A program made the translations under genes and the position numbers. From the IMG/VR virus record IMGVR_UViG_3300032284_001070, positions 1 to 27,771 of that record: DNA of 27,771 nucleotides. One strand, given 5' to 3'. The stretch comes from a virus. Below the pieces are notes generated by a model. It ran no database searches and had not been told where the DNA came from. It saw nothing but the letters and a program-made list of their open reading frames with translations. This document shows positions 8,171 through 23,361 of this stretch, piece after piece. Each line of letters begins with the position of its first letter. Positions within the stretch are counted from its first letter, which is position 1.

Positions 8171-8197
8171 GACTCCTGCAGTCAGTTCGTGTATAAT
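8169..8197 (+). promoter_or_regulatory. Near-consensus sigma70 promoter, leaderless layout
   Basis: TTGACT (8169-8174), 17-nt spacer, TATAAT (8192-8197). The predicted start falls on the A of ATG 8204, 12 nt after the first base of the -10. No Shine-Dalgarno sequence is present. Confidence 0.85.
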
Positions 8198-8203
8198 TAC
8201 TGT

Positions 8204-9337
8204 ATGAAGACCTTTGAATATGTTGAAGACTACCTAGAGGTAATTGCTGGCAAGCGTCAGCTGGCCAGCGGCCTGCTGTCGCCTATATCATTGTTTGCTA
8301 GTTTTACTCCACTGGTAAACCTAGCACGGTACGATGTCAATTTCTTGGACAATGTAACAGATCAAACCACCAGCGGCAATGCTCTAACGGATAGGCAAGC
8401 TGAACTGGCTATCAAGCTGATACAGAAGTACAAGCGACAGCTACTCACACACAACATTGATATAGATGCAATCGATCCTCCACGGTATCGCAAGTCTCTG
8501 CGTATTCTTGACCGTACGAAAAAGGTAGAGCTGATTGATGGGGCCATACGCATGCGATTTCCTTATGAATCCAAGCTGATTGAATCTATCCGTGACGAAT
8601 CCAAGGAAAGCCAAGGACGCATACACTTTGATCGAGATGTCAAGTTGTGGAAGGTGGCACTCACTGAATACAATTTGAACTGGGCCTGTGAGTTTGCAAG
8701 ACTACACGGTTTCGAAATAGACAAGGCATTACAGGACCATATGGCAAACATTGTTGCATGTGAGCAATCGGAATTTAAAATTGAGCTGGTTCAAACAGAC
8801 AACGGGTTTGCTATCAGCAATGCCTCTGGCAGTTTAGTTGAGTATATCAACGCACACGGCGGCTTTGGGCTGGATAATACCGTGTTTTTAGCTGACATGT
8901 GCTCTGTGCTGGGCTATACCCTATCAGCTGAAGTAGAAGCGTTATTTGCGGAGATATTCACGGCTAGTGATGCACTACTGCTATACAACCGCAGTTACGA
9001 TTTCAATACAGCGCCGGATACCATTGGACGCATAGTGAGCTATGCTCAGCTGACCAATCGTTATCCTATCGTAACCTACAATCCTAATCCAGATGGTTCT
9101 TTGGTAGAGTGGCAACGGCATTTTGCACCCGAGGAAATTTTGGTGGTCAAGAATCAAAAACATAGTGATGTGCAGGTGCTTCCACAGCATAAATTAATAT
9201 ACAGTTCACAGATAATACGAAGCCTAGAACACATTCCTCTACTGGTAAGTCAGATCGGAATGATTGTAGGCTCAAGCAAACAGACCATGGTCACCGTGGC
9301 CGAGAAAATCTTCTACACCCAAATGAAATTAGGTTAG
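8204..9337 (+). CDS. Unknown replication-block protein with HARP-like segment
   Basis: A 377-aa protein. I start at ATG 8204; a GTG at 8189 lies within the promoter and would be upstream of the predicted transcription start. Residues about 107-174 (IRMRFPYESKLIESI, then IHFDRDVKLWKVAL) resemble the HARP domain of SMARCAL1-type annealing helicases: hydrophobic-PY, a helix, then a D..K.W.V strand pair. The remaining sequence is not recognised, although the C-terminal third ends in a hydrophobic IPLLVSQIGMIVGS segment. It lies directly before uvsW. The HARP-like call is by eye and suggests binding of branched or fork DNA; function is otherwise unknown. Confidence 0.7.
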   Translation: MKTFEYVEDYLEVIAGKRQLASGLLSPISLFASFTPLVNLARYDVNFLDNVTDQTTSGNALTDRQAELAIKLIQKYKRQLLTHNIDIDAIDPPRYRKSLRILDRTKKVELIDGAIRMRFPYESKLIESIRDESKESQGRIHFDRDVKLWKVALTEYNLNWACEFARLHGFEIDKALQDHMANIVACEQSEFKIELVQTDNGFAISNASGSLVEYINAHGGFGLDNTVFLADMCSVLGYTLSAEVEALFAEIFTASDALLLYNRSYDFNTAPDTIGRIVSYAQLTNRYPIVTYNPNPDGSLVEWQRHFAPEEILVVKNQKHSDVQVLPQHKLIYSSQIIRSLEHIPLLVSQIGMIVGSSKQTMVTVAEKIFYTQMKLG

Positions 9338-9380: not shown

Positions 9381-10835
9381 ATGTTTGCAACACTAAAAAT
9401 AAAAGACGAAGTTAATGTAAAAATTGAAGGACTTGAATTATCAGATCGAACAGCTCTGGTAAAGAAATACAAGTACGAGATTCCTGGCGCTAGGTATCAG
9501 CCTAGCGTTCGTCTTGGCCGCTGGGATGGCAAGGTAGCCTACTTCCAGCTTGGAGGCACTACCTATATTAATCTGTTGCCGGATATCATTGAATATTTGG
9601 TTAGCCAAGGCTATCAAATAGAACTAGAAGACACTCGTGAGTACAAACGAGATTTCAGCTTCAGTCAAGTCAATGCACACAGTTACAGCCACATCATGTG
9701 GCCCAAAGGTCATCCTAAAGAAGGAGAACCCATGGAACTGCGAGACTATCAACCTGATATCATCAACAGGTTCTTTGACAACCCACAATGTGTACAAGAG
9801 ATCGCAACAGGTGCAGGTAAAACTGTGATCACAGCCGCACTATCAGATGCAGTATCGCAGTATGGTAGGAGCATTGTGATCGTGCCCAACAAGAGCCTGG
9901 TAACACAGACACACAAGGACTACAAGAACATGGGACTTGATGTTGGCGTGTACTTCGGGGACGATAAAGAATACAACCGCCAGCATACTATCTGTACCTG
10001 GCAAAGCCTTAACATACTGCTGAAAAATACTCAAGCTGGAACAGCTGAAGTGACCATTGGTGAGTTTATCGAAGGCGTTGTGGCCATTATTGTAGATGAA
10101 GTACACATGGCCAAAGCAGATGCATTAAAGACTCTGCTCACAGGGGTGTTTGCCCGGATACCTCTACGTTGGGGACTCACTGGAACTATCCCTAAGGATC
10201 CTTATGAGTTCATGGCCATTAGATGTAGTCTAGGCGATACTGTAGGACAACTGAGTGCAAGCGAACTACAGGCCGCAGGACACCTGGCCAACTGTCATGT
10301 TAACGTTATACAGCTACTGGACCATGTGGAGTACAGCAACTATCAGAGTGAACTCAAGTATCTATTAGAAACCACTGGCCGGTTAGACTATATAAGTACT
10401 CTAGTAGAGCGCATTCGAGAGACTGGCAATACCTTGATCTTGGTTGATAGGGTAGCGGCTGGCAAAGCTCTCCAAGAGAGAATTAAAGATGCTGTGTTTG
10501 TATCAGGGTCCACCAAGGCCACCGCGAGACAAGATGAATACGATGACATTGCCATTGCTGATGGCAAGGTTATTATTGCTACTTACGGTGTTGCCGCTGT
10601 GGGCATTAATATTCCTCGCATTTTCAATATGGTTTTACTTGAACCAGGCAAGAGCTTTGTGCGTGTCATACAGTCAATCGGTCGTGGAATACGCAAAGCA
10701 GAAGATAAGGACTTTGTTCAAATCTGGGACATAACCAGCACCTGCAAATTCGCCAAGAGACATCTAACCAAACGCAAACAGTTTTATAAGGAGGCTAACT
10801 ACCCCTTCACAATAGAAAAGGCAGAATGGCAATAA
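9381..10835 (+). CDS. uvsW: UvsW-type SF2 DNA helicase
   Basis: A 484-aa protein of the length and layout of T4 UvsW. An N-terminal DNA-binding domain (residues 1 to about 110) contains the conserved RLGRWDGK segment. The SF2 helicase core has Walker A (ATGAGKT, about residues 142-148), DEVH (about residues 237-240), LTGT motif III and motif VI (QSIGRGIRK, about residues 431-439). In T4, UvsW unwinds R-loops and branched DNA, drives fork regression and helps switch from origin- to recombination-dependent replication. It follows the HARP-like gene and overlaps the next gene by 10 nt. Confidence 0.95.
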   Translation: MFATLKIKDEVNVKIEGLELSDRTALVKKYKYEIPGARYQPSVRLGRWDGKVAYFQLGGTTYINLLPDIIEYLVSQGYQIELEDTREYKRDFSFSQVNAHSYSHIMWPKGHPKEGEPMELRDYQPDIINRFFDNPQCVQEIATGAGKTVITAALSDAVSQYGRSIVIVPNKSLVTQTHKDYKNMGLDVGVYFGDDKEYNRQHTICTWQSLNILLKNTQAGTAEVTIGEFIEGVVAIIVDEVHMAKADALKTLLTGVFARIPLRWGLTGTIPKDPYEFMAIRCSLGDTVGQLSASELQAAGHLANCHVNVIQLLDHVEYSNYQSELKYLLETTGRLDYISTLVERIRETGNTLILVDRVAAGKALQERIKDAVFVSGSTKATARQDEYDDIAIADGKVIIATYGVAAVGINIPRIFNMVLLEPGKSFVRVIQSIGRGIRKAEDKDFVQIWDITSTCKFAKRHLTKRKQFYKEANYPFTIEKAEWQ

Positions 10836-11939: not shown

Positions 11940-12445
11940 TGGCAACCAAACCCAAAGCACCTGTTGATTACAATTCTAAGCTATACATTGGCAATGAATT
12001 GGCCGCACTGGACCGCAAGGACCGCGGCTATTACGACAGCATGACCACGGAAGAACAAAAGAAGTTTAGTCCGTTTCTCATGATACGCTGGGGTAGTAGT
12101 GTAGAAGCAGGTTCGCCGGATGAGAGATTGGTGCAAGCATACTATGTGCAGTCAACAAATGAATACCTGAACAAGTATTTCTTTTCATTGAGCAAGCATC
12201 CAAAGTTGCAGTGGCTACTGGCAACAACCATTAGTCCAAATGCAAAGACCAGACGCCATACCTGGATAGCAAACAAAAAACGTGAAGGCTCAGACAATAA
12301 GTTGAACAAGTTTTTGCGTGAAATTTATCCTCATCTGAAGGAAGACGAAATTGAGTTACTCCGAAGCATCAATGATAAAAGAGATCTTAAACAGTTGGCA
12401 AGGGACCACGGCTGGGATGACACAAGAATCAAAGAGTACTTTTAA
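11939..12445 (+). CDS. Clamp loader small subunit, gp62-like
   Basis: A 168-aa protein whose layout matches marine T4-like gp62 (clamp loader A subunit). It has a short N-terminal segment, then FSPFLMIRWGS, a helical YVQSTNEYLNKYFFSLSKHP region, a basic patch at TRRHTWIANKKREG, and a C-terminal ending of the type IELLRSINDKRDLKQLARDHGWDD. In T4, gp62 and gp44 form the 1:4 clamp loader that opens gp45 and places it on primer-template DNA. Neither gp44 nor gp45 is in the window. Similarity is judged from recalled family patterns rather than an alignment. Overlaps the next gene by 29 nt. Confidence 0.75.
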   Translation: MATKPKAPVDYNSKLYIGNELAALDRKDRGYYDSMTTEEQKKFSPFLMIRWGSSVEAGSPDERLVQAYYVQSTNEYLNKYFFSLSKHPKLQWLLATTISPNAKTRRHTWIANKKREGSDNKLNKFLREIYPHLKEDEIELLRSINDKRDLKQLARDHGWDDTRIKEYF

Positions 12446-13118
12446 ATGTCGGTACTGCGAAAAAGAATTCCGCAAGGAAACAACTCTTGTGGCACATCTC
12501 TGCGAACAAAAGCGCCGTTGGCAACAGGAAAAAGAAACAGGAGTGCAATGGGGACTACAAAGCTATTTGCAGTTCTATGAAACAACACAAGGAAGCGCCA
12601 AGCTAAAAAGTTATGAAGATTTTGTCACTAGCCCTTATTATAATTCTTTCGTTCGCTACGGCAGATATTGTGTATCTGTACGGGCTATCAATCGCCGCAG
12701 TTATTGTGAGTGGCTCTTAAAGAACAACAAGAAACTGGATCACTGGTGCAAGGATTCCTACTACGAAGAATGGTTGCTGGAATACCTGCGCAGGGAAAGT
12801 GTACAGGATGCACTGGAACGTGGACTAAAGGAAATGACAGACTATGCAGAAGCTCATCCAGAACTCAAGAACGGTTATGTCGATTACTTTCGGTACGGTA
12901 ATAGCAATCGTATCGTACACCATATATCAACAGGACGCATTAGTGCTTGGGTTGTTTATAATTGTGATACAGGAGTTGAGTTTCTTGACAAACTCATGGA
13001 AGACCAAATCTCGATCGTGATGCCCTACATTGATCCAGACCATTGGCATCGTAAATTAAAAGACTACATGGCTGATGCCGAGTGGTGCAAGATGATCCTC
13101 AAGGAAGCAGGCCTATGA
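12417..13118 (+). CDS. Zinc-finger protein of unknown function
   Basis: A 233-aa protein starting at ATG 12417 within the end of the gp62-like gene; the frame is open upstream, but that part lies antiparallel to nothing conserved and deep inside gp62. It carries a CxxC...HxC finger (Cys11, Cys14, His27, Cys29: KCRYCEKEF...VAHLC) followed by a long basic helix and a Tyr/Trp-rich body. Zinc fingers of this kind bind nucleic acid or protein. In T4 the gene after gp62 is regA, a translational repressor, but this product does not resemble RegA. It is coupled to the next gene by ATGA. Confidence 0.75.
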   Translation: MTQESKSTFKCRYCEKEFRKETTLVAHLCEQKRRWQQEKETGVQWGLQSYLQFYETTQGSAKLKSYEDFVTSPYYNSFVRYGRYCVSVRAINRRSYCEWLLKNNKKLDHWCKDSYYEEWLLEYLRRESVQDALERGLKEMTDYAEAHPELKNGYVDYFRYGNSNRIVHHISTGRISAWVVYNCDTGVEFLDKLMEDQISIVMPYIDPDHWHRKLKDYMADAEWCKMILKEAGL

Positions 13119-13708
13119 AATTTAAATCAGACATTGATATCGACTTTGGAGATCGTACTCAGATACTCAAAGCAATCAAGCACACACCTGCAAGCATACA
13201 GCGTGATGGTGCATTGATACAGCACAACACAGGAGTGTATGTTACGCCAATTCCAGTGGACCCAGAAAAGGGCATAGCCAGCATTGATCACGAAAGCGCA
13301 GACGAGCGTGGGTACATTAAATTGGACCTGCTGAATGTTAACCTGTATCAGAGTGTGCGCAATGAAGCACACCTGACTGTCCTGATGCAAACAGAGCCTG
13401 CATGGGACTTGTTCAACGCAGAACAGGCCTTCTTTGAGGAGTTAATACATGTAAAGGGTCACTGGAATCTGCTCAAGCGTATGCCGGAGCCTGTGGACAG
13501 TATTCCTAGGCTAGCAATGTTTTTAAGTGTTATACGCCCTGCAAAAAGACATTTGGCAGGAAAAACCTGGGCGGAAGTTGCCACAGAAGTTTGGAAAAAG
13601 CCAGAAGACAATTCCTACTACTTTAAGAAAAGTCACGCGATTGCGTATGCAAATCTAGTGGTAGTGAACATGAACCTGTTAGCCGAGCTTGCGTACCAGG
13701 GTAATTGA
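13115..13708 (+). CDS. Miniature DNA polymerase III alpha (DnaE)-like protein
   Basis: A 197-aa protein starting at ATG 13115 (ATGA overlap). Four blocks line up in order with bacterial DnaE. DIDIDFGDR (residues 6-14) matches the PDFDVDF catalytic strand. IQHNTGVYVTPIPV (residues 35-48) matches the HAGGVVIAP segment. YIKLDLLNV (residues 67-75) matches VKFDFLGL, whose Asp is the third catalytic residue. YYFKKSHAIAYA near the C-terminus matches FNKSHSAAYA. The PHP, fingers, beta-binding and OB regions are absent, against about 1160 residues in E. coli DnaE. It may be an active small polymerase-like protein, a decoy or a structural derivative; the sequence cannot tell. Confidence 0.7.
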   Translation: MKFKSDIDIDFGDRTQILKAIKHTPASIQRDGALIQHNTGVYVTPIPVDPEKGIASIDHESADERGYIKLDLLNVNLYQSVRNEAHLTVLMQTEPAWDLFNAEQAFFEELIHVKGHWNLLKRMPEPVDSIPRLAMFLSVIRPAKRHLAGKTWAEVATEVWKKPEDNSYYFKKSHAIAYANLVVVNMNLLAELAYQGN

Positions 13709-14080
13709 TCGTCTTTTACTTTTCTTGGCCGCGATTTCTTTAAGACTTACCAGTGGGCCAAATTTGATTTCTACATCTCTGCTGTTGAGAGTTTTTAAAC
13801 TGTATCTGAAAGGTGACCAGTCTGTGCGTAAAAATACATTTATAGGAATCAATCTATTGGATTCCCACCACCAATTTTCTCCTAGTGCTAGGAATAGTTT
13901 TTTCTCGTCGTCTGTTCGGAGCGCGGCAAAGTCGTAGACGCTGGTAATCACATCATCAACATTTTGGATGATGCCAATATACTCGTTACCACCATAGCCA
14001 ATGTAGCTGATGAAAGGATAGTTTTCTAATAATTGCCGATAGTATTCACTTAATTCGGGCTTCGGGGATTTTGTACTCAT
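13679..14080 (-). CDS. Unknown late protein, only minus-strand gene
   Basis: A 133-aa protein read from ATG at 14080-14078 to TAA at 13681-13679. The product has aromatic-rich segments (ISYIGYGGNEYIGIIQ, ENWWWESNRLIPIN) and a basic C-terminus; no family is recognised, though I recall similar proteins in T4-like cyanophages. A perfect TATAAATA late box lies just upstream on this strand. It runs convergently against the DnaE-like gene and overlaps it by 30 bp. A competing plus-strand frame (13689-13937) lacks a ribosome site and recognisable product, so I prefer this one. Confidence 0.7.
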   Translation of the reverse strand: MSTKSPKPELSEYYRQLLENYPFISYIGYGGNEYIGIIQNVDDVITSVYDFAALRTDDEKKLFLALGENWWWESNRLIPINVFLRTDWSPFRYSLKTLNSRDVEIKFGPLVSLKEIAAKKSKRRSITLVRKLG

Positions 14081-14108: not shown

Positions 14109-14137
14109 TTGATTTACTTTTGAAAAGCCTGTATACT
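14109..14137 (+). promoter_or_regulatory. Sigma70 promoter, leaderless layout
   Basis: TTGATT (14109-14114), 17-nt spacer, TATACT (14132-14137). The predicted start is about 14144, the second of two consecutive ATG codons (14141 and 14144). No Shine-Dalgarno sequence is present. Confidence 0.75.
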
Positions 14138-14140
14138 CTA

Positions 14141-15172
14141 ATGATGTTTGACATAGTACAACAAGAAGTTTTAGCACTACTGCCTGCTAAACAAAAACAC
14201 ACGAACAAGTGGATCAGCTTCAATGCTCCTTGTTGTACGCATCGTGGTGAGACACAGGACCGTCGAGGCCGCGGAGGTGTTGCACCAAATGCAGATGGTA
14301 GTATCAGCTATCACTGTTTCAATTGCCATTTCAAAACCAACTACAGACCCGGGCGAGCGATAGGATACAAGTTCAAGCAACTGTTAGAATGGCTTGGCGC
14401 CAGTGACCGAACCATACAGCGACTGAGCATCGAAGCCCTTCGCATACGTGATCTAATTGCTCCGCCCGAAGTAGTAGAAAAGAAAATACAGGAAATACGT
14501 TTTGAGCCAAGGCCCTTGCCCGAGGGTGTGGTCAGTTTAAGCGAGTTCCGCGAACTGCTGGTTAATGCAGATGAAGAAATAGAAATTCCTGAGGAACTGG
14601 CACGTGGACTAGAGTATCTGTCAGAACGTAGGATAAACCTGGATAAGTACGAGTTCTACTTTACTGATGATACTGCACACAAGATGAACAAACGGATTAT
14701 TATTCCGTTTATCTGGAAGCAGGATATCATAGGATACACCAGTAGGACCTGGGACGAGAATGTCAAGCCCAAGTACTTTAACAGCCATGAACCAAACTTT
14801 GTATTCAATACAAACATGCAAACACCTGATCGTAAGTTTGTTATTGTGGTTGAAGGCCCATTTGATGCCATGGCAATAGATGGTGTTGCTATACTGGGCA
14901 ATGAGATCAGTGAAGAGCAAGTGGACATAATAGACAGCCTCAAGCGTGAGGTTATTGTAGTACCAGACTGGGACAAGCCAGGGCAATCCATGATTGATGC
15001 GGCGCTGGAATACGGATGGAGTGTGAGCTTTCCTGTATGGCGTGAAGAATACAAAGACGTTGCGAGTGCGGTAGAAAAACTAGGACGATTATTTGTGCTC
15101 AAAAGTATACTTGAAGCCAAGCAATCGAATGGATTAAAGATTGAGCTACTGCGGAAAAAAATATATAATTGA
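14141..15172 (+). CDS. DNA primase, gp61-like
   Basis: About 343 aa. An N-terminal zinc-binding domain has CCTH (residues 31-34) and CFNC (residues 59-62). A TOPRIM domain has VVEGPFDAM (about residues 235-243, with the catalytic Glu) and VVPDWDKPG (about residues 272-280, the DxD). This is the layout of T4 gp61 primase, which makes pentaribonucleotide primers and works with gp41 helicase. Start is ATG 14141 or 14144; a TTG at 14120 lies inside the promoter and is rejected. The helicase gene follows directly, as expected for a primosome pair. Confidence 0.92.
   Translation: MMFDIVQQEVLALLPAKQKHTNKWISFNAPCCTHRGETQDRRGRGGVAPNADGSISYHCFNCHFKTNYRPGRAIGYKFKQLLEWLGASDRTIQRLSIEALRIRDLIAPPEVVEKKIQEIRFEPRPLPEGVVSLSEFRELLVNADEEIEIPEELARGLEYLSERRINLDKYEFYFTDDTAHKMNKRIIIPFIWKQDIIGYTSRTWDENVKPKYFNSHEPNFVFNTNMQTPDRKFVIVVEGPFDAMAIDGVAILGNEISEEQVDIIDSLKREVIVVPDWDKPGQSMIDAALEYGWSVSFPVWREEYKDVASAVEKLGRLFVLKSILEAKQSNGLKIELLRKKIYN
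15141..15169 (+). promoter_or_regulatory. Sigma70 promoter, leaderless layout
   Basis: TTGAGC (15141-15146), 17-nt spacer, TATAAT (15164-15169), all within the last codons of the primase gene. The predicted start is 15175-15176, on the ATG of the helicase gene. No ribosome site is visible, only an A-rich stretch. Confidence 0.75.
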
Positions 15173-15174
15173 TT

Positions 15175-16593
15175 ATGACAAAAGACTATAACGTAGATTT
15201 TCAAAAACTATTTCTTGAGATGATGTTGCATGATGCACAGAGTTTTGTGCGTGTGCAGAACATATACAATGAGGAGAACTTTGATCGGAGTCTACGATCG
15301 GCCGCAAAGTTCATCAAAGAGCACAGCGAGAAACACAAGACATTGCCTACCCTGGATCAAGTACGAGCAGTGGCAGGCGTGGATCTTAAACCCATGCCGG
15401 ACATGGGCGAAGGACACACAGACTGGTTCATGGAGGAGTTTGAAGGTTTTACCCGACGCAAAGAACTTGAACGTGCTATTCTTAAAAGTGCAGACCTGAT
15501 CGAAAAGGGCGACTACAATCCTGTAGAGAAACTGATCAAGGATGCGGTACAGATATCGCTAACCAAGGATCTAGGCACAGACTACTTTGGAGATCCTCGA
15601 ACCAGGTTAGAAAAGTATTTTAACTCGGGTGGACAGATGAGCACTGGCTGGCCGCAGATGGACAGGATCTTGTTTGGCGGCATGAGCCGAGGCGAGTGGA
15701 ATGTGTTTGCAGGCGGCTCTGGATCGGGTAAATCCTTGGTCATGATGAACCTGGGTTTGAACTGGGTACAGGCAGGGCTCAGTGGCGTATACGTCACACT
15801 AGAATTGAGCGAAGAATTAACTGCGCTTAGAACGGATGCAATGCTTACCAGCATGAGCACAAAAGATATCCGACGTGACATGGATACCACAGAGCTCAAG
15901 GTTAAAATGGTAGGCAAAAAATCAGGATCCTATCAGGTCAAGGGTTTGCCTGCACAGAGCAATATCAACGACATACGCAGTTTCTTAAAAGAATATCAGA
16001 TACAAACAGGCCGCAAAGTGGATTTTATAATGGTCGACTATCTGGATCTGTTGATGCCTGTGAGTGCTAAGGTAAGTCCAAATGATCTGTTTGTTAAAGA
16101 CAAGTATGTATCAGAAGAACTGCGTAATCTGGCCAAAGAAGAACAGATATTTTTGGTAACAGCATCACAGTTGAATCGTAGTGCAGTGGACGAAGTAGAA
16201 TTTGATCACTCACATATTTCAGGTGGTATCAGTAAAATTAACACAGCAGATAATGTGTTTGGTATTTTTACAAGCCGTGCCATGCGTGAACGTGGACGCT
16301 ATCAAATACAGTGTATGAAAAGCCGTAGCTCAACAGGTGTTGGGCAGAAAATTGATCTGGATTATAATGTTGAAACCATGCGTATCACTGACTCGGGCGA
16401 AGATGCTAGCAGTAATCATCAAGACTCCAACAGCATCATGAGCCAGATCAAAGCATCAACTAATGCATCGCCAAAGGTAGCCCCAACTAGTGTAGATGCA
16501 GAAACCGGTGAAATCTCATCTACACCCAAAGCAAACGTGCAAGGAAACAGGTTAAAAAGCATGCTAGCGGATATCAAGAACAAGGATCTCTAA
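15175..16593 (+). CDS. Replicative DNA helicase, gp41/DnaB-type
   Basis: A 472-aa protein of the T4 gp41 length and layout: a helical N-terminal domain, then a RecA-like core with FAGGSGSGKS (Walker A, about residues 178-187), YVTLELS, a Walker-B strand FIMVDYLDLL (about residues 284-293) and a TASQLNR motif, followed by a flexible polar tail of about 70 residues. Gp41 is the hexameric 5'-3' helicase of the T4 replisome and the partner of gp61. I start at ATG 15175; a TTG six bases earlier is possible but overlaps the -10. The stop overlaps a 16-codon ATG frame (TAATG). Confidence 0.93.
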   Translation: MTKDYNVDFQKLFLEMMLHDAQSFVRVQNIYNEENFDRSLRSAAKFIKEHSEKHKTLPTLDQVRAVAGVDLKPMPDMGEGHTDWFMEEFEGFTRRKELERAILKSADLIEKGDYNPVEKLIKDAVQISLTKDLGTDYFGDPRTRLEKYFNSGGQMSTGWPQMDRILFGGMSRGEWNVFAGGSGSGKSLVMMNLGLNWVQAGLSGVYVTLELSEELTALRTDAMLTSMSTKDIRRDMDTTELKVKMVGKKSGSYQVKGLPAQSNINDIRSFLKEYQIQTGRKVDFIMVDYLDLLMPVSAKVSPNDLFVKDKYVSEELRNLAKEEQIFLVTASQLNRSAVDEVEFDHSHISGGISKINTADNVFGIFTSRAMRERGRYQIQCMKSRSSTGVGQKIDLDYNVETMRITDSGEDASSNHQDSNSIMSQIKASTNASPKVAPTSVDAETGEISSTPKANVQGNRLKSMLADIKNKDL

Positions 16594-22336: not shown

Positions 22337-22587
22337 AAAAACAGAGCCTTGAAGCCCACGTTGAACTGTGTGCAGAAAGGTACGAAAAATTGGAAAATAA
22401 ACTCGAAAATGTCGAGAAGAAGGTGGAGAGGTTAGAAGAGCATATTATTGCTATTCGAGAAACTCTAGCGGGTGCCGGCGACAAACAAAGTAAACAGTTG
22501 ATCGCAATTGGTACAGCGATTGTAACTGTGCTAATCACTGGAATACTGACTATTCTGGTAAGTTACATTTCTAATATTAGCAAATGA
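22321..22587 (+). CDS. XhlA-like coiled-coil membrane protein, possible holin
   Basis: An 88-aa protein with a GTG start and a TAGGAG ribosome site (about 22307-22312). Residues about 10-50 form a heptad coiled coil (ERYEKLENKLENVEKKVERL), and one transmembrane helix (AIVTVLITGILTILVSYI, about residues 66-83) is at the C-terminus. This is the layout of the XhlA/BhlA haemolysin-type phage proteins, which assist holins in host lysis. No endolysin lies nearby, so the lysis role is inferred from topology only. Confidence 0.6.
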   Translation: MSTNIEKQSLEAHVELCAERYEKLENKLENVEKKVERLEEHIIAIRETLAGAGDKQSKQLIAIGTAIVTVLITGILTILVSYISNISK

Positions 22588-22796
22588 AAATAATCGAACT
22601 GGTCAACAATCTAACAATCCCTATCACAAACGAAGAAAGTGATGTGCTTGGTAGATTTTATGACAAGAAACAAATCCTACGCAAGGATCTCAATGAACGC
22701 GAAGTAGCAGTTGCAAATTCTTTAGTTAACAAAGATGTGCTAGTTCGTAGGAATCAAAATGGCCAAATCACGTACTTCAAAAAAACGCAATCCTAA
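22584..22796 (+). CDS. Unknown small late protein
   Basis: A 70-aa protein overlapping both neighbours (ATGA at its start, 38 nt at its end). The pattern of a short helix, TNEE..VLGRF, LNEREVAVANSLVNKDVLVR and a terminal beta pair (QNGQITYFKK) looks like a small winged-helix-type fold, which I recall in similar proteins of marine T4-like phages. Whether it binds DNA or has a structural role is unknown. Confidence 0.65.
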   Translation: MKIIELVNNLTIPITNEESDVLGRFYDKKQILRKDLNEREVAVANSLVNKDVLVRRNQNGQITYFKKTQS

Positions 22797-23361
22797 ACTA
22801 CTAAAAAAAGCTACCCAGCTGGCTGGAATACAGGTAGCTGAAGAACTAACAGTTGCATACGTAGACTGGTGGATGCAACAGGAAATCAAGCGATTAATAT
22901 CAAACAACACCTTGGTAATTCTTCCTGCGCCCGGAGGAGACACCTATCAGATTTCCACTTCCAGAATAACCAAAAGAAAAGAGTGCTGGGAAGTAACCAG
23001 CTCTGTGAACGATAAGATCAAGATCTTTAGTTCACGTGAAAGTGCGGTGTTCTACTGCCTGTTTGAATACAAGAAGCTCTACGTCAAAGCACAGGAAATT
23101 TCAATCTATGATAGCCATGTGCTACATCTAGAAACTGACCGAAGATTTTTAAAGCATAAGTACATGCAAGCAAGAGAAAAGGGTCAAGGGTTTGAGATGG
23201 ATCTGTATGAAGCTAGGCTTAGTGACGTGGTTCCTAAACTAGAGCATGCTAAAGATTATCTTCAAAAATTGCTTAACTCGGCTAAATACATTAAACTTTG
23301 GGACACTAACAACCATGAGACTATCAGAAATCGGAAGCAAGGCGACAGCCAAGAGAATTAA
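22759..23361 (+). CDS. Unknown late protein
   Basis: A 200-aa protein starting inside the previous gene and ending 47 nt into the next one. It has a basic N-terminus (AKSRTSKKRNPKLLKK), a mixed middle and a helical C-terminus. I recall relatives in T4-like cyanophages annotated as hypothetical or structural. The late promoter of the following gene lies within its last 80 bases. Confidence 0.68.
   Translation: MAKSRTSKKRNPKLLKKATQLAGIQVAEELTVAYVDWWMQQEIKRLISNNTLVILPAPGGDTYQISTSRITKRKECWEVTSSVNDKIKIFSSRESAVFYCLFEYKKLYVKAQEISIYDSHVLHLETDRRFLKHKYMQAREKGQGFEMDLYEARLSDVVPKLEHAKDYLQKLLNSAKYIKLWDTNNHETIRNRKQGDSQEN
23282..23288 (+). promoter_or_regulatory. Late promoter CTAAATA
   Basis: CTAAATA (23282-23288) lies inside the preceding gene. 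Predicted start near 23294-23296, about 20 nt before the ATG at 23315. Confidence 0.55.

Follow-up and report, generated by a model that had tools for sequence, protein, structure and literature searches.

A new example of the split, minimal DNA polymerase III alpha of jumbo phages in an uncultivated viral contig

A 197-residue protein encoded within the replication cassette of the viral contig analyzed here (the window, which is the entire 27,771-base contig) resembles a small part of the bacterial replicase DnaE. What does such a fragment do in a phage: does it act as a self-contained miniature enzyme, persist as a remnant, interfere with the host, or form one part of an enzyme encoded elsewhere? 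A phage-specific minimal DNA polymerase III (Pol III) alpha, divided between two distantly encoded proteins and accompanied by a B-family polymerase, has been described in the group 2.2 jumbo phages (Iyer et al., 2021; PMC7824862). The gene in the window is a new example of this split enzyme, already described in 2021 from genomes. The same study proposed cooperation with the B-family polymerase, in one-strand synthesis or repair, and suggested that the split protein represents an ancestral form of Pol III alpha (Iyer et al., 2021; PMC7824862). In the main text of the Atu_ph07 paper (PMC6102473), gp316, the N-terminal half, is the sole protein named Pol III alpha. A literature search with thin coverage of subscription journals found no experimental study of the split enzyme. 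Added here to the 2021 description are the cut point, the invariant residues, the predicted folds, and the spread of both halves.

The C-terminal half and its assignment to the C family

The open reading frame runs from an ATG at 13115 to a stop at 13708 (197 codons); an AAGGA-type ribosome site is present in the window sequence, and the start overlaps the preceding gene in an ATGA. The features of the gene and its surroundings are as follows.

9381..10835, plus strand: UvsW-type helicase, left end of the conserved cassette
12351..13118, plus strand: upstream conserved gene, phrog_11058, with weak zinc-finger similarity; the listed TTG start is uncertain
13115..13708, plus strand: C-terminal half (C half) of a split minimal Pol III alpha, 197 amino acids, based on reading frame and translation, conservation in 150/150 relatives, hhalign and AlphaFold2
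13130..13144, plus strand: DIDID codons (D6, D8, D10), encoding the metal-binding DxD strand that matches E. coli alpha 401-405
13325..13327, plus strand: D71 codon, third catalytic Asp, in YIKLDLL; equivalent to E. coli alpha D555, with hhalign pairing YIKLDLL and LVKFDFL
13535..13540, plus strand: R141-P142 codons, fingers motif of the 'RPGP' type, equivalent to E. coli alpha R639-P640
13622..13648, plus strand: FKKSHAIAY codons (170-178), fingers motif, equivalent to DnaE 756-764, FNKSHSAAY
13679..14080, minus strand: small convergent gene, phrog_11637; overlaps the C-half gene at the latter's 3' end
14120..15172, plus strand: DnaG/gp61-type primase of the same replication cassette
15169..16593, plus strand: gp41/DnaB-type replicative helicase

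By profile comparison and predicted fold, the 197-residue protein is a C-family (DnaE-type) protein with all three catalytic aspartates. The sequence-only reading had proposed a miniature DnaE-like protein on the strength of these aspartates and of four short segments, and both observations stand: D6, D8 and D71, corresponding to D401, D403 and D555 of E. coli alpha, are present and invariant among 150 distinct relatives, and the four segments occur in the same order as in DnaE. Residues D10, H37, G40, K69, R141 and P142 are invariant in the same set, as are K144, F170, K171, H174 and Y178. Comparison with DnaE family profiles, suggested as a check, returned a C-family match: when an alignment of 46 relatives was compared by hhalign with eight full-length DnaE proteins, the match had E = 1.6e-9 and a probability of 96%, spanned DnaE ~510-642, and paired H37 with H511, D71 with D555, and R141-P142 with R639-P640. 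A second profile-profile run with a different match-column rule gave E = 3.8e-7, and chance resemblance to DnaE can be ruled out in this comparison, as the best of 30 column-shuffled decoys reached only E = 0.013. The C half matches the PHROG profile phrog_11778 (annotated 'DNA polymerase') at 4e-58; through its KSHAIAYA segment it also shows weak similarity to three larger families of phage DNA polymerases. The homology was detected by profile-profile and fold comparison; single-sequence searches of Pfam and the PDB found no C-family match, the NCBIfam search was uninformative, and a C-half HMM searched against PDB sequences gave no informative match.

Structure prediction, another check suggested, points the same way. 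The AlphaFold2 model of the C half has a pLDDT of 93.4, and its 11 top-ranking Foldseek matches in the PDB are all Pol III alpha (E from 5e-3 to 0.34, best probability 0.99), followed by an unrelated entry at E = 1.1. In a viral structure library, the named top matches are DnaE-type or DNA polymerases. The best Foldseek E-values are modest (5e-3 for this half and 4e-2 for its partner, described below), with unrelated folds scoring far worse; model and fold matches together predict a palm fold for the C half.

The gene neighborhood is also conserved. Across six reference phages (with annotation partly missing in Atu_ph07 and SCTP-2), the order reads UvsW-type helicase, several small genes, C half, convergent small gene, one or two genes, primase, and helicase. 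In the window, too, the C half lies with UvsW on one side and gp61/gp41 on the other; this placement is an observation of the present analysis and not a requirement set by Iyer et al. (2021). All six reference phages have a small convergent gene at the equivalent place, and such constancy is unusual in a cassette that otherwise runs in one direction. The phrog_11058 protein directly upstream (12351-13118, plus strand), which shares the ATGA overlap with the polymerase half, contains a possible zinc finger, CRYCEKEFRKETTLVAHLCEQ, and is a candidate functional partner of that half. Just upstream of UvsW, a 382-residue protein (8189-9337, plus strand) matches nothing in Pfam and resembles an uncharacterised PHROG only weakly.

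The separately encoded N-terminal half

The triphosphate-binding GRGS motif is absent from the 197-residue chain and is carried by a separately encoded N-terminal half. PF07733 matches a second, distant locus in 6/6 complete reference jumbo-phage genomes, over profile positions ~18-98 only, in reading frames of ~170-180 residues. Profile-profile comparison of this N half with DnaE 317-392 gives E = 2.1e-10, and none of 85 distinct N halves departs from GxGRGS. Its AlphaFold model has a pLDDT of 91.2, and in the PDB its ranks 1-14 are occupied either by Pol III alpha or by further DNA polymerases (best E 4e-2). In five of the six reference phages the N half lies 2-3 genes upstream of a gene annotated as clamp loader; Phosso is the exception, its closest AAA ATPase being more distant.

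The two chains abut one another on the DnaE sequence. The N half carries GRGS and stops where DnaE reads 'FERFLN', and the C half starts just before DnaE 'PDFDVDF'; in Phosso, the N half ends in GRGSSVASYVLFLIGIHRVNSITYELDFDEFLN, a stretch that reaches residue ~393 in E. coli alpha numbering, and the C half starts just before residue 401. N halves end 33-39 residues past the start of GRGS in 105/105 phage loci, and nearly all C halves start 1-7 residues ahead of DxDxD. The consistency of these ends and starts places the cut in the chain at DnaE ~393-396, after the GRGS segment and before the DxD strand. No fused or adjacent N and C gene was found in 178 C-half and 105 N-half loci. Nor was a full-length DnaE found elsewhere in the six reference phages, where a single weak, stop-containing match was all that PF07733 detected besides the N half. 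The N half was not found within the 27.8-kb contig, so that we can only infer the partner for the phage of the window; it is present in the large IMG/VR relatives G017 and G018.

These observations bear on what the C half could be on its own. The earlier suggestion of a self-contained small enzyme or a remnant does not fit the location of GRGS in a second protein, nor the recovery of that N half from 60 phage records, as against 63 for the C half. Phages are known to attack host replication, and since the C half resembles alpha it might, by mimicry of part of that subunit, act as a decoy for the host replicase or inhibit it; we regard this as highly improbable, given that the catalytic aspartates are invariant in 150 sequences, that a partner with the missing motif is equally conserved, and that the tau- and clamp-binding regions, which are alpha's link to the host replisome, are absent. 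Catalytically idle halves with a purely structural part in the phage replisome would accord with the presence of both in replication cassettes, but such strict conservation of metal- and triphosphate-binding residues is unexpected for a scaffold, and there is little to recommend this reading either. The sequence-only reading had raised both an inhibitor and a scaffold; neither gained positive evidence, and strict catalytic conservation in both halves argues against them.

Distribution of the halves and the accompanying B-family polymerase

A tblastn search with the C half recovered 63 phage records, each with at least 80% query coverage, and identities were 32-46% among the 60 matches listed of these 63. 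Carriers include RaK2, GAP32, 121Q, CBB, PA5oct/Paride, Atu_ph07, Phosso and SCTP-2. Compared with the split Pol III alpha of group 2.2 (phrog_11778 for the C half, phrog_11127 for the N half; RaK2, GAP32, Atu_ph07 and PA5oct-type phages), the window protein is alike in length, catalytic residues and neighborhood, and differs in being 32-46% identical to the listed named phages, in coming from an uncultivated phage, and in having its partner outside the contig. Two overlapping scans of IMG/VR confirmed at least 299 and at least 589 candidate stretches. The RaK2 N half recovered 60 phage records; 59 of them also appear among the C-half records, of which 60 out of 63 were listed. Among 19 large IMG/VR contigs, 11 contain both halves, seven the N half only and one the C half only; the two largest N-only contigs have no match to the gp41 helicase, which both controls match, and incomplete contigs are thus the simplest reading. 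The divergence of N and C halves is correlated across 17 genomes (r = 0.86, with 0/5000 permutations as high), as expected from shared inheritance, and is therefore not evidence of contact. Plasmids gave no match. In bacterial and archaeal genomes, 12 contigs match; the titles of 11 mark them as MAGs, and the 12 are probably phage contigs binned with cells. One IMG/VR contig (G016) contains two N halves with identical scores, at 22499-23005 (plus strand) and 94662-95168 (minus strand), possibly reflecting a long inverted duplication or an assembly artefact.

The sequence-only reading had found a C-family gene unexpected beside the B-family polymerase of T4-like phages, and this pairing is borne out in the relatives: a B-family polymerase is present in all 14 large records searched, which comprise the six reference phages together with eight large relatives from IMG/VR. 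This T4 gp43-type polymerase, encoded in the same phages, has an unrelated palm fold and is a separate enzyme. No A-family polymerase was found in the six reference phages. Unsplit C-family proteins also occur in phages, such as the DnaE-like proteins of Streptomyces phage Bovely and Serratia phage Spe5P4, but these have ~900-1160 residues and an N-terminal PHP region.

A possible two-chain polymerase

Together, the N and C halves align to DnaE ~317-392, ~396-412, ~510-643 and ~756-775. Like bacterial DnaE, the C half contains, in order, equivalents of the Pol-beta-type palm DxD...D, H511, K553, R639-P640 and the KSH helix; unlike it, the split enzyme distributes the palm over two genes and lacks the PHP domain, thumb, middle fingers, helix-hairpin-helix, OB, and everything else C-terminal, including the clamp- and tau-binding parts. 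The region from D10 to H37, where the thumb would lie, has 26 residues in the C half and ~105 in E. coli, and the middle fingers are reduced to ~26 residues from ~110. The earlier statement that the PHP, fingers, tau- and clamp-binding regions were all gone is therefore only partly right: the loss of PHP and of the tau- and clamp-binding regions stands, and the fingers are partly kept, as R141-P142 and as FKKSHAxAY at 170-178 (DnaE F756...Y764).

We consider it probable, from these alignments and models, that the C half and its distantly encoded partner form a two-chain minimal C-family DNA polymerase that helps the B-family replicase. The C half would be the metal- and template-binding half of a heterodimer, and the N half would bring the palm's helical portion, including the triphosphate-binding GRGS. 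Because these motifs are on different chains, each half would need the other, and neither alone would have a complete nucleotidyltransferase site; docked, the two should rebuild the Pol III alpha palm and shortened fingers, with GRGS of one facing D6, D8 and D71 of the other. The lack of a thumb makes processive synthesis by the two halves alone doubtful, and the pair probably receives help with its grip from the phage replisome. The genomic setting suggests that synthesis beside the B-family replicase may be short, in gap filling, in repair, or on Okazaki or recombination intermediates. The data establish homology, conserved residues, a complementary break point, co-occurrence of the halves, coexistence with a B-family polymerase in relatives, and the predicted fold of each half; that the halves assemble and are catalytic, and that beside the B-family replicase they fill gaps, repair DNA or synthesize one strand, is inferred.

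It is also conceivable that the pair is an active nucleotidyltransferase, not a templated polymerase, which tails ends or modifies nucleotides during recombination-dependent replication. The retention of catalytic residues after loss of the thumb and middle fingers, and the location of the C half in the UvsW cassette, would suit such an activity. However, the DnaE-typical R141-P142 and KSHA helix are invariant, which suggests selection on template and dNTP binding, and we consider this alternative unlikely. The stronger form of the polymerase reading, to which we would give about even chances, is that of a working enzyme whose active site is assembled from chains of ~175 and ~195 residues, cut between GRGS and DxD, and which serves as a second dedicated polymerase of B-family jumbo phages, possibly the smallest of the C family. 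Should the pair prove active, two genes would together make up a C-family polymerase of minimal size that has neither thumb nor PHP domain, and the phages would clearly exemplify the retention of two unrelated replicative polymerase families. The split enzyme bears on the origin of Pol III alpha and on the need of jumbo phages for a second polymerase, and the exact residues and cut point make it directly testable.

A further candidate component is the DnaQ/epsilon-type exonuclease (PF00929), found as a stand-alone gene in four of eight split-polymerase genomes at the positions below; with this distribution, a dedicated epsilon-type partner is not a constant of the system.

W02, 109954-110460: stand-alone epsilon-type exonuclease
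W03 (Paride, OR805295), 50409-50870: stand-alone epsilon-type exonuclease
W04 (Atu_ph07, NC_042013), 460326-460781: stand-alone epsilon-type exonuclease
W06, 208086-208601: stand-alone epsilon-type exonuclease

The B-family matches themselves fall in two frames in Paride (88906-89946 and 92423-92683), in two open frames in Atu_ph07 (212336-213688), and in different frames up to ~7 kb apart in the IMG/VR relative G002 (382173 and 389554). The B-family polymerase gene of these three phages thus seems also to be split or interrupted.
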